Assembly (NCBI RefSeq): GCF_001672295.1
Contig: NZ_JXMS01000009.1
Location: forward strand, 1-61,114
DNA from: Halodesulfovibrio spirochaetisodalis
Lineage (GTDB): Bacteria > Desulfobacterota > Desulfovibrionia > Desulfovibrionales > Desulfovibrionaceae
Direction: 5' to 3'
Length of the DNA stretch: 61,114 bases
In this document: piece after piece, positions 13,613-16,683 of the stretch
Numbering within the stretch: the first letter of the stretch is position 1
Layout: each line of letters starts with the position of its first letter
Position numbers and translations under genes: made by a program
Notes under the pieces: generated by a model
Database searches by the model: none
What the model was told of the DNA's origin: nothing
What the model saw: the letters and a program-made list of their open reading frames with translations, nothing else

Positions 13613-13707
13613 TGGCGGAGAGGGAGAGATTCGAACTCTCGGTACCAGTTTTGCTAGTACACACGATTTCCAATCGTGCTCCTTCGGCCGGGCTCGGACA
13701 CCTCTCC
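13613..13707 (-). tRNA. tRNA-Ser(GGA), solitary copy
   Basis: A 95-nt class II tRNA. The acceptor is GGAGAGG/CCTCTCC with discriminator G and encoded CCA; the anticodon loop is TTGGAAA (anticodon GGA, reading UCU/UCC). There is a long variable arm and a T-arm with GTTCGAATC. The sequence is identical to the four copies at 14443-15284. It lies alone, about 125 bp past the cupin gene stop, with its own terminator. Confidence 0.95.
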
Positions 13708-14442: not shown

Positions 14443-14537
14443 TGGCGGAGAGGGAGAGATTCGAACTCTCGGTACCAGTTTTGCTAGTACACACGATTTC
14501 CAATCGTGCTCCTTCGGCCGGGCTCGGACACCTCTCC
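14443..14537 (-). tRNA. tRNA-Ser(GGA), array copy 4 (promoter-distal)
   Basis: Identical 95-nt tRNA-Ser with anticodon GGA and encoded CCA. It is the last element of the array in transcription order and is not followed by an SRP RNA gene. Confidence 0.95.
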
Positions 14538-14544
14538 GCGATGG

Positions 14545-14580
14545 AAAAAGAAGGCACAAACATTACTGCTTGCGCCTTCT
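14545..14580 (-). terminator. Hairpin with T run after SRP RNA copy 3
   Basis: An 11-bp stem (AGAAGGCGCAA with TTTGTGCCTTCT) followed by TTTTT, 7 nt before the next tRNA-Ser 5' end. It has the form of an intrinsic terminator, but the next gene has no room for its own promoter, so readthrough or processing must occur here. Confidence 0.8.
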
Positions 14581-14665
14581 GGGAGTCGGACACCCACCTA
14601 CAACTGCTACGGCTGCTTTCTCTCGAACCTGACCGGGTTGACAGCGTAAATGCCATCCGACTCCC
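14581..14665 (-). ncRNA. ffs: SRP RNA (4.5S), copy 3
   Basis: An approximately 85-nt RNA closed by a 10-bp stem (GGGAGUCGGA with its complement). The helix 8 signature is clear: GGUCAGG on the 5' side, a GAGA tetraloop and AGCAGCC on the 3' side, with a compensatory UC/GA pair relative to the E. coli CC/GG. This is the 4.5S core that binds Ffh and FtsY in co-translational membrane targeting. Exact ends are estimated. Two identical copies lie 249 and 498 bp away. Confidence 0.9.
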
Positions 14666-14691
14666 TACTCAATTAGGGTAAATTTGTTGAC

Positions 14692-14786
14692 TGGCGGAGA
14701 GGGAGAGATTCGAACTCTCGGTACCAGTTTTGCTAGTACACACGATTTCCAATCGTGCTCCTTCGGCCGGGCTCGGACACCTCTCC
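14692..14786 (-). tRNA. tRNA-Ser(GGA), array copy 3
   Basis: Identical 95-nt tRNA-Ser(GGA). About 26 nt separate its CCA from the following SRP RNA copy 3. Confidence 0.95.
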
Positions 14787-14793
14787 GCGATGG

Positions 14794-14829
14794 AAAAAGA
14801 AGGCACAAACATTACTGCTTGCGCCTTCT
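14794..14829 (-). terminator. Hairpin with T run after SRP RNA copy 2
   Basis: Identical to the hairpin at 14545-14580, again ending 7 nt before the next tRNA-Ser. Confidence 0.8.
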
Positions 14830-14914
14830 GGGAGTCGGACACCCACCTACAACTGCTACGGCTGCTTTCTCTCGAACCTGACCGGGTTGACAGCGTAAAT
14901 GCCATCCGACTCCC
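14830..14914 (-). ncRNA. ffs: SRP RNA (4.5S), copy 2
   Basis: Identical to the copy at 14581-14665, with the same closing stem, GAGA tetraloop and conserved internal loop. Confidence 0.9.
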
Positions 14915-14940
14915 TACTCAATTAGGGTAAATTTGTTGAC

Positions 14941-15035
14941 TGGCGGAGAGGGAGAGATTCGAACTCTCGGTACCAGTTTTGCTAGTACACACGATTTCCA
15001 ATCGTGCTCCTTCGGCCGGGCTCGGACACCTCTCC
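14941..15035 (-). tRNA. tRNA-Ser(GGA), array copy 2
   Basis: Identical 95-nt tRNA-Ser(GGA), preceding SRP RNA copy 2 in the transcript. Confidence 0.95.
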
Positions 15036-15042
15036 GCGATGG

Positions 15043-15078
15043 AAAAAGAAGGCACAAACATTACTGCTTGCGCCTTCT
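15043..15078 (-). terminator. Hairpin with T run after SRP RNA copy 1
   Basis: Identical to the other two inter-unit hairpins; ends 7 nt before the 5' end of tRNA-Ser array copy 2. Confidence 0.8.
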
Positions 15079-15163
15079 GGGAGTCGGACACCCACCTACA
15101 ACTGCTACGGCTGCTTTCTCTCGAACCTGACCGGGTTGACAGCGTAAATGCCATCCGACTCCC
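15079..15163 (-). ncRNA. ffs: SRP RNA (4.5S), copy 1 (promoter-proximal)
   Basis: Identical to the other two copies. It is the first SRP RNA in transcription order, lying 26 nt after the first tRNA-Ser of the array. A tRNA-Ser next to the SRP RNA gene is a known arrangement in other bacteria (for example near scr in Bacillus); triplication is not. Confidence 0.9.
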
Positions 15164-15189
15164 TACTCAATTAGGGTAAATTTGTTGAC

Positions 15190-15284
15190 TGGCGGAGAGG
15201 GAGAGATTCGAACTCTCGGTACCAGTTTTGCTAGTACACACGATTTCCAATCGTGCTCCTTCGGCCGGGCTCGGACACCTCTCC
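15190..15284 (-). tRNA. tRNA-Ser(GGA), array copy 1 (promoter-proximal)
   Basis: Identical 95-nt tRNA-Ser(GGA), first gene of the array, about 25 nt downstream of a plausible promoter. Confidence 0.95.
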
Positions 15285-15381: not shown

Positions 15382-15522
15382 TTATTCTTTATCTGTTTTT
15401 TTAGTATCGTCCAGAGAAACTCCCTGGTCAGAATCCGGGAATCAGTTTCCCCAGTTTCGAATAAATCGCACGATAAAAAACACAGCAACAATTGCTGCGA
15501 GATACGATGAAAAGTCTTTCAT
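15382..15522 (-). CDS. Candidate selenoprotein 1: 46-residue single-helix membrane protein with in-frame UGA
   Basis: The minus-strand frame opens MKDFSSYLAAIVAV, forms one membrane helix (about residues 6-20), then RFIRNWGN, an in-frame UGA at codon 27, and a hydrophilic tail FPDSDQGVSLDD...KKTDKE to TAA. GGAG lies 8 nt before the ATG. The tail after UGA is acidic/lysine-rich, as a real C-terminus would be, and an intrinsic terminator follows TAA directly. A hairpin with a G-starting loop begins 14 nt past UGA. Reading UGA as selenocysteine gives one Sec next to the membrane and no Cys. Alternatives: a 26-residue protein ending at UGA, or a nonsense mutation. Family not recognised. Confidence 0.5.
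15411..15427 (-). promoter_or_regulatory. SECIS-like hairpin, candidate selenoprotein 1
   Basis: The minus-strand RNA CCAGGGAGUUUCUCUGG forms a 7-bp stem with one G-U pair and loop GUU. The loop starts 21 nt after the UGA, inside the roughly 16-37 nt window known for bacterial SECIS elements, and begins with G followed by U, as SelB-binding loops do. The hairpin is inside the coding frame. Confidence 0.5.
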
Positions 15523-15675
15523 TAAAAAAGCTCCAGACCTGCATAGATGATAATAACCATGCGTAAGAATTATTGTGCAGTCAATTTTACAATAGCGAGT
15601 TCAGTTGTGCGGAAAAATCTGTGTATATTTTCCCTGAGGATCAAAAATATAACAGGCAGTTTCATATGGCAAATG

Positions 15676-15703
15676 AAAAGGGCGGCTTAATTGCCGCCCT
15701 TTT
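15676..15703 (-). terminator. Intrinsic terminator after candidate selenoprotein gene 2
   Basis: Perfect stem AAAAGGGCGGC with complement followed by TTTT-CATTT on the minus strand, starting 6 nt after the TAG stop. It ends the hisD-purC-fabI transcription unit together with this gene. Confidence 0.88.
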
Positions 15704-15708
15704 ACAAG

Positions 15709-15885
15709 CTATTTGCAGTTGTACTTTTTCTTTTTAGCAGAACCGCATGAGCATCCTGACGAGGAGCCTCCCCGTCCGTCAAAGCTGATGCCTCAACCCG
15801 AAGGTTTATGGCCTTTAGGAACAACTTTGATGCAGACGAGTGCTATGATCACTAACCCTATAATGGGTATGAGGTACTCAAGCAT
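15709..15885 (-). CDS. Candidate selenoprotein 2: 58-residue membrane protein with in-frame UGA and Cys-rich tail
   Basis: The minus-strand frame begins MLEYLIPIIGLVIIALVC at an ATG with a strong AAAGGAGG site 6 nt upstream. After one membrane helix come KVVPKGHKPSG, an in-frame UGA at codon 31, then GISFDGRGGSSSGCSCGSA and a Lys-rich end with a last Cys, closed by TAG. A terminator starts 6 nt past TAG. It begins 24 bp after the fabI stop, so it is the last gene of hisD-purC-fabI. If UGA is Sec, the protein has G-U-G next to the membrane and a nearby CSC pair. The layout (one helix, Gly/Ser-rich tail, Cys) recalls FeoB-associated Cys-rich proteins; homology is not claimed. Alternatives: a 30-residue protein or a nonsense mutation. 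Confidence 0.6.
15758..15776 (-). promoter_or_regulatory. SECIS-like hairpin, candidate selenoprotein 2
   Basis: The minus-strand RNA GACGGGGAGGCUCCUCGUC forms an 8-bp stem with one G-U pair and loop GGC. The loop starts 24 nt after the UGA. Outside it, GCAUC just after the UGA can pair with GAUGC past the hairpin, extending the structure to the UGA itself. It has the same form as the hairpin in the neighbouring small gene but a different sequence. Confidence 0.55.
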
Positions 15886-15909
15886 ACAAGCCTCCTTTCG
15901 GATTCTCCG

Positions 15910-16683
15910 CTACTTAACGCCAATGCCTACCACATGGTATCCGCAGTCAACGTGCAGGACTTCACCGGTAACGCCGGATGAAAGGTCAGAGGCAAGGTAC
16001 AGTGCAGAACGTCCCACATCCTGTGTGGTAACGTTGCGCTGTTGCGGAGCATTTTCTTCAATGTAGTTAAGAATTTTACGGAAACCGGAAATGCCGGATG
16101 CAGCAAGAGTTTTAATCGGGCCTGCGCTGATGGCATTAATGCGGACATTTTTCTCGCCGAGATCAACGGCAAGGTAACGTACGCTGGCTTCAAGAGCTGC
16201 TTTGGCAACACCCATTACGTTGTAGTTAGTAATAACCTTTTCAGCGCCGTAATAGGAGAGGGTGATAACTGATGCGTTATCAGTGAGCAGATGCTCAAAA
16301 GCACCACAGACAGCTGTCAGCGAGTAAGCAGAAATGTCCATGGCAAGTTTGAAACCGTCACGGGAAGTTTCAATGAAACGACCCTGAAGGTCTTTACGGT
16401 CAGCAAATCCGATGGAGTGAACAATAATATCCACGCCACCCCATTTTTCTTCAACCAGTTTTGCAGCGGCAGCAATTTCTTCATCACTGCTGACATCACA
16501 CTGGAAGATAAAATCACCCTCGAGTTCTTCACAGATAGGCTCAACGCGTTTTTTTAACGCATCGCCGAGGAAGTTGAACGCAAGTTGTGCGCCTTGTTCT
16601 TTGAATTCTTTGGCAATGCCGTATGCAATACTTTTATTGTTGGCAACACCCAGAATCAGGGCTCGTTTCCCTTCAAGAAGCAT
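15910..16683 (-). CDS. fabI: Enoyl-[acyl-carrier-protein] reductase (NADH), FabI
   Basis: A 257-residue short-chain dehydrogenase-type reductase for the last step of each fatty-acid elongation cycle. LILGVANNKSIAYGIAK is the FabI cofactor loop. The catalytic Tyr and Lys are in YNVMGVAK (YxxxxxxK), and AISAGPIKTLAASGI is the substrate-loop region. Length and order match the family. GGAG stands 5 nt before the ATG. It follows hisD and purC with a 65-bp gap and precedes the small UGA-containing gene by 24 bp. Confidence 0.97.
   Translation of the reverse strand: MLLEGKRALILGVANNKSIAYGIAKEFKEQGAQLAFNFLGDALKKRVEPICEELEGDFIFQCDVSSDEEIAAAAKLVEEKWGGVDIIVHSIGFADRKDLQGRFIETSRDGFKLAMDISAYSLTAVCGAFEHLLTDNASVITLSYYGAEKVITNYNVMGVAKAALEASVRYLAVDLGEKNVRINAISAGPIKTLAASGISGFRKILNYIEENAPQQRNVTTQDVGRSALYLASDLSSGVTGEVLHVDCGYHVVGIGVK

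Follow-up and report, generated by a model that had tools for sequence, protein, structure and literature searches.

Here, we report a small gene beside fabI in Halodesulfovibrio spirochaetisodalis, named U1, which on sequence comparison can be read as a selenoprotein gene with a probability of about 0.95. U1 runs from 15885 to 15709 on the minus strand of the window, the whole stretch of 61,114 nucleotides that was analysed. The explanation that is best overall, and very probably correct, is that U1 encodes a membrane-anchored mini-selenoprotein, for which a role as a selenol/thiol relay is proposed. Moreover, U1 is likely to be one case of a large set that extends over the phylum (Desulfobacterota) and is invisible from the window alone. 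The best reading of this set is a new family of membrane-anchored mini-selenoproteins, apparently overlooked so far. The features in the window are as follows.

15709..15885, minus strand: U1, putative gene of a small single-pass membrane selenoprotein with Sec at codon 31 (from translation, genus comparison and a selection test)
15793..15795, minus strand: in-frame UGA, codon 31, read as selenocysteine; kept in all 10 genus members
15758..15776, minus strand: SECIS-like hairpin GACGGGGA-GGC-UCCUCGUC, with the loop 24 nt past the UGA and synonymous change suppressed
15891..15898, minus strand: ribosome-binding site AAAGGAGG, located by eye
15675..15703, minus strand: terminator-like inverted repeat 3' of U1, seen by eye and unflagged by the terminator scan
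15910..16683, minus strand: fabI (enoyl-ACP reductase), upstream neighbour of U1; the best NCBIfam matches are FabI models, at 388 bits, below their curated cut-offs
15382..15522, minus strand: U2, second small single-pass ORF with an in-frame UGA (15444-15442), a probable tandem selenoprotein paralogue with counterparts in 4 further genomes among the 10 of the genus

The initial annotation had described a short gene 24 bp past fabI; the gene is present and lies on the minus strand, which that annotation did not give. The ATG start codon of U1 is at 15885 and fabI ends at 15910, which leaves the gap of 24 bp, and the ribosome-binding site described earlier could be recognized at 15898-15891. 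U1 comprises 58 codons followed by TAG. When the UGA is read as Sec, its product is MLEYLIPIIGLVIIALVCIKVVPKGHKPSGUGISFDGRGGSSSGCSCGSAKKKKYNCK, and this translation bears out the single membrane helix, the UGA at codon 31 and the 27 further codons to TAG. The product can be described as composed of a short N-terminus, one membrane helix, a Gly-rich stretch near the membrane that carries Sec, a GCxC motif and a Lys-rich end. The hairpin proposed at 15776-15758 was also recovered, with 8 bp including one G-U pair and a GGC loop that starts 24 nt past the UGA. The outer GCAUC/GAUGC pairing, which had been thought to extend this hairpin to the UGA, is a weaker detail, as relatives do not keep it. 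As for the terminator claimed just past the TAG, its repeat is visible by eye in the sequence but went unflagged in the terminator scan. An Rfam scan of the region gave no model at gathering score. Elsewhere in the window, four tandem tRNA-Ser(GGA) genes with an exact period of 249 bp lie on the minus strand at 14443-15284, with a fifth at 13613-13707.

The U1 protein was found in 10 of 99 related genomes. These ten make up the whole of its genus in the sample, and the nine relatives there are 46-90% identical to it. Each of the ten copies has exactly one in-frame TGA, and in the oriented loci the UGA stands at codon 31 or 32 in all ten and is followed by a related tail. Homologues that end at the UGA and a loss of conservation past it had been named as signs against a selenoprotein. 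All 10 genus homologues run on in frame, and nine columns past Sec are invariant in the genus (D36, G37, R38, S43, G44, C45, C47, K53 and C57). At the position of codon 31, where the initial annotation had suggested looking for Cys or Sec, homologues have UGA in 10 of 10 genus genomes, and Cys in one possible form only, L106, described below. Among the six closest relatives, pN/pS of U1 is 0.16 before the UGA and 0.19 after it, which indicates that the downstream codons are under purifying selection, with conservation at the protein level. In the same six, the hairpin codons have a pS of 0.071, compared with 0.444 upstream of the UGA and 0.468 in the final codons, and ungapped identity drops to 0.58 past the TAG. 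Two genus members have deletions in the stem region, of 3 and 9 nt, and both still fold a hairpin, one with a different loop and the other with only 5 bp.

The initial annotation had left selA, selB and selC to be confirmed and regarded an absence of selB or selC as speaking against its proposal; all are found in the same genome, with selB at 400.9 bits, tRNA-Sec at 84.6 bits and selA at 626.2 bits. Furthermore, this genome has three UGA-containing formate dehydrogenases (FdhA) above the family cut-off. The hairpins of these three, and of a fourth, partial match, have 9 bp and a loop 19-23 nt past the UGA, a geometry like that of U1, and they are a fitting positive control. Across the phylum, 4 of 129 genomes positive for the profile described below lack selA, compared with 30 of 236 others (p 0.002), in counts made by hand in which the positives include some genomes whose match is no family member; with selA present in 331 of 365 genomes, this co-occurrence test is weak. 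These observations bear on the reading that the UGA is read through, by suppression or programmed read-through, with an amino acid other than Sec. The inserted residue cannot be named from sequence, which leaves room for such a reading, but the presence of selA, selB and tRNA-Sec, the hairpin geometry shared with FdhA of the same genome and the rarer loss of selA in profile-positive genomes all argue against it, and we regard it as extremely improbable.

Relatives were also sought more widely. The U1 protein gave nothing convincing in 89 genomes outside its genus, and neither did the genus profile, A1, beyond the genus in the order and the phylum. Weak profile matches (E 4e-4 to 0.1) occurred in 46 genomes outside the genus; 11 of these loci were inspected, and all were judged by eye to be chance. 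Further members were found by reading the DNA 3' of fabI in other genera. The 89 fabI-downstream regions read, each of at most 420 nt and some shorter at contig ends, consist of 29 of 30 loci (L079 was left out) and 60 regions, from 267 genomes of the order with fabI. Small membrane ORFs were counted if they had one interrupting stop and then at least 10 open codons. The interrupting stop was TGA in 28 cases (26 regions), TAG in 4 and TAA in 2 over the 89 regions; without the window genus, 23 TGA cases remain, spread over 23 of 86 regions and coming from 11 genera and two families. One such fabI-linked protein from another genus is MEDLLVLGLVFVVWIIVVKFVFPKLGIHGUGPSSKSCSWQDKKRGH. In some genera the UGA ORF does not adjoin fabI and lies 100-400 nt past it. 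In two loci of genus g40 (L136 and L139) it is found 278-290 nt past fabI, directly behind a small membrane ORF with a TAG stop. The sole possible Cys form, L106, lies beside fabI, and its profile score is no better than that of shuffles.

The second ORF of the window, U2, is present in 5 of 10 genus loci, including that of the window, 170-190 nt past U1. Four U2 copies carry the motif RNGGGUCP, and their hairpins have 6-8 bp and a loop at 21 nt. The window copy (15522-15382) has a drifted motif, RNWGNUFP; here the scan gave a hairpin of 7 bp with the loop at 12 nt, and another of 7 bp with the loop at 21 nt can be seen by eye.

A profile made from 17 fabI-linked sequences (A3), some rows of which are shifted by one at the Sec column, was run on 375 genomes of the phylum and matched 131 genomes and 88 of 239 genera at E 0.02 or better. 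We read 139 match rows, which are all those listed except the window's own. In 124 of them, from 123 genomes, a short membrane ORF has TGA as its next stop and then an open in-frame tail, usually Lys-rich and with a UxxxxC motif. The remaining 15 rows comprise longer or other proteins (L210, L236, L244, L258, L283-L288 and L290-L293) and L282, which is short and doubtful. Among these, L210, L244, L258, L283 and L285 are tiny single-pass Cys-rich membrane proteins matched by the same profile, which, judged by eye, we take to be of the FeoB-associated type and which may be distant kin of the set. Where an A3 match has at most 43 residues ahead of its stop, that stop is never TAA or TAG. Because most A3 matches do not reach the UGA, the tail played no part in their selection.

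The consensus of the phylum-wide set is MKDILILLGIVVVWFVLNRWILPKLGVPT-U-MSPSCSVGDRKKKK (LPKxGVxT-Sec). Most members are 40-65 residues long and have a single helix, which is followed after about 10 residues by Sec, and a basic tail. The phylum statistics rest on 104 rows with 43 family labels, 20 later-read rows being left out. In these, P is found at -7 in 94, G at -4 in 96 and T at -1 in 82, and Cys occupies Sec+5 in 73. The tail is devoid of Cys in 10 of the 104, and in 14 of 137 members overall. The codon directly past the UGA is ATG in 56 rows, GTG in 2 and another codon (not ATG, GTG or TTG) in 46. Seven profile-negative genomes were searched with profile A4, with no match better than E 0.06 and two weak matches. 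No fabI was found beside any of the 28 phylum loci checked, within up to 1.5 kb on each side. Outside Desulfovibrionales, the neighbours are varied and say little on function; six picked by hand from 25 of the 28 loci are two DsbD-type membrane proteins, a pyridine-nucleotide disulphide oxidoreductase, a D-Ala-D-Ala carboxypeptidase, a PLD-type protein and a sulphur transporter. Three loci of family f34 (L169, L177 and L179) have a variant tail, QIPFPPEGGK or QFPFPLEGGK, and in L169 and L177 the variant ORF follows a gene that by eye resembles an SbcD/Mre11-type nuclease.

Hairpins were scored across members with a simple rule of our own, distinct from bSECISearch: at least 6 bp, a G in the first two loop positions and a loop 11-37 nt past the UGA. 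Such a hairpin is found in 112 of 137 members, compared with 23.4 in dinucleotide shuffles and with 83 of 244 ordinary TGA stops (p 9e-20). The 112 comprise 86 of 104 phylum-wide members, 16 of 23 from other Desulfovibrionales and all 10 of the genus, these last being closely related, and the loop distance is 23 or 24 nt in 51 of them. Folding energies are only moderately low, with a mean z of -1.24 and 21% below -2. For a fixed-stem test, 73 members were gaplessly aligned to the Cys at +5, and 3' sides were exchanged between sequences. The best stem, with the loop at 23, is paired in 0.624 of cells, compared with 0.467 when permuted (maximum 0.517 of 500). This geometry came out best among all that were tried, on these same data, and it alone was given a permutation control. 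The stem shows compensatory pairs.

A further reading takes the UGA as a true stop, so that the product would be a 30-residue membrane peptide, such as a small regulator or a Hok-like toxin, and the rest would be untranslated or a separate ORF. The part before the UGA does, on its own, resemble a small membrane peptide, and the ATG (56 of 104) or GTG (2) right after the UGA in phylum members offers a possible start. Moreover, one U2 sequence gave a weak HokA match (E 0.11), which was the only match to a Hok-like type I toxin profile and, at 12.5 bits, falls below the cut-off of 89. However, the codons past the UGA are under in-frame purifying selection, the next codon is none of ATG, GTG and TTG in 46 of 104 rows, TGA is the next stop in 124 of 139 matches while the short ones never have TAA or TAG, and SECIS-like hairpins with covariation lie downstream, which makes a true stop very improbable. 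Two other candidate explanations, a pair of separate ORFs and a sequencing error, were ruled out by the codon after the UGA, the selection test and the recurrence in 156 genomes.

With U1 thus read as a selenoprotein gene, its relationship to the phylum-wide set can be considered. U1 shares the architecture of the set, with one N-terminal helix, Sec shortly after it and a basic tail. Profile comparison joins the fabI-linked set (without genera g39 and g40) to the phylum-wide set at 98.95%. With hhalign, the match of the window genus to the fabI-linked set reaches 92.7%, with a score of 33.9 compared with at most 24.8 in 30 column shuffles, and that to the phylum-wide set reaches only 67% and lies before Sec. 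Single window-genus sequences do not score above shuffles with profiles of other members. The U2 sequences of G001 and G002 reach 23.4 and 20.1 with the fabI-linked profile, compared with a maximum of 15.9 in 1000 shuffles made from U1, and with the phylum-only profile they are not above shuffles. The link between U1 and the phylum-wide set is drawn from the position past fabI, the architecture and the match to the fabI-linked set; because the single-sequence and phylum-profile matches are weak, membership is called only probable. U1 could instead be a genuine selenoprotein specific to its genus, analogous and not homologous to the phylum-wide set, as the failure of window-genus sequences to beat shuffles with sequence profiles and the value of 67% for the phylum-wide set alone would allow. 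We consider this unlikely, since U1 has the same place past fabI and the same architecture as fabI-linked members, the profile-profile match to them exceeds shuffled controls, and the neighbouring U2 of G001 and G002 scores above 1000 shuffles.

For U1, the known pathway predicts that SelB would bring tRNA-Sec to the UGA at codon 31, aided by the hairpin at 15776-15758, to give the 58-residue protein. The basic tail bearing Sec is predicted to face the cytoplasm, because of the positive-inside rule. Sec and a nearby Cys could form a selenenylsulfide/selenol switch, which may reduce disulfides, persulfides or peroxides at the membrane, like eukaryotic SelK and SelS. The helix, the basic tail, the position of Sec near the membrane and the usual Cys at +5 suggest such a membrane-tethered selenol switch; the 14 of 137 tails that are Cys-less mean that a UxxxxC switch cannot be universal. 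We infer a redox-relay function with about even odds. Alternatively, Sec may be structural or may bind metal together with the CxC motif and the Cys-rich tail, for example in metal or selenium trafficking at the membrane. The GCxC motif and the C-terminal Cys of the window genus are consistent with this role, as is the resemblance in architecture to the Cys-rich membrane proteins among the profile by-catch. The Cys-less tails would be poor metal ligands, and PMC13188914 takes most uncharacterised selenoproteins to be redox proteins, so that we regard a structural or metal-binding Sec as unlikely.

Neither the window protein nor any of 18 other sequences, the possible Cys form among them, has a Pfam or NCBIfam match above cut-off. 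The Pfam models of SelK and SelS gave no match, with E up to 1 allowed for 18 sequences and up to 10 for the window protein. Nothing similar, judged by descriptions, appears in a 119-row table of prokaryotic selenoprotein families (PMC13188914). The statement in the initial annotation that no similar bacterial selenoprotein family is known thus holds against Pfam, NCBIfam and the searchable part of the literature. Selenoprotein prediction currently leans on Cys homologues, and the new set has no clear Cys forms; the authors of deep-Sep state that the method may not identify selenoproteins without Cys homologues (PMC12013277). In addition, a gene of 45-60 codons that is cut by a UGA near codon 30 is easily missed. 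Since about one third of the sampled phylum genomes (123 of 375) have the set, it is possibly one of the commonest selenoproteins of this phylum, which includes sulphate reducers. The set points to a Sec-dependent membrane function, for which the literature searched (supplements and subscription papers being outside its scope) holds no assay. The fuller proposal, that this unrecognised mini-selenoprotein family is a bacterial counterpart of SelK and SelS, acting as a selenol relay on the cytoplasmic face and tied to fatty-acid synthesis, is in our view evenly balanced; the tie to fatty-acid synthesis is suggested by the place past fabI in several Desulfovibrionales genera.

Known bacterial selenoprotein families share with the new set a UGA with a hairpin immediately downstream and the SelA/SelB machinery. 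They differ in that none listed in the table of PMC13188914 is described as such a single-helix mini-protein. The new set has no NCBIfam match in 19 sequences and no clear Cys-form relative, with one possible (L106). Cys-rich membrane proteins of the FeoB-associated type are likewise tiny and single-pass, with a Cys motif and a charged tail, but no in-frame UGA stands ahead of their Cys-rich tail. SelK and SelS are small single-pass selenoproteins with one membrane helix, whose Sec sits in a flexible tail that is Gly-rich or basic. For SelS, a selenosulfide with a nearby Cys has been proposed (PMC3628699). With no Pfam match in the 19 sequences, no sequence homology to SelK/SelS is shown; the likeness lies in the single membrane helix, the Sec in a Gly-rich or basic tail and, for SelS, the nearby Cys. 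In the bacterial set, however, the hairpin is inside the reading frame, the proteins are smaller, and Sec is near the membrane, whereas in SelK and SelS it is near the C-terminus. The set offers a minimal bacterial model for proteins of the SelK/SelS type.
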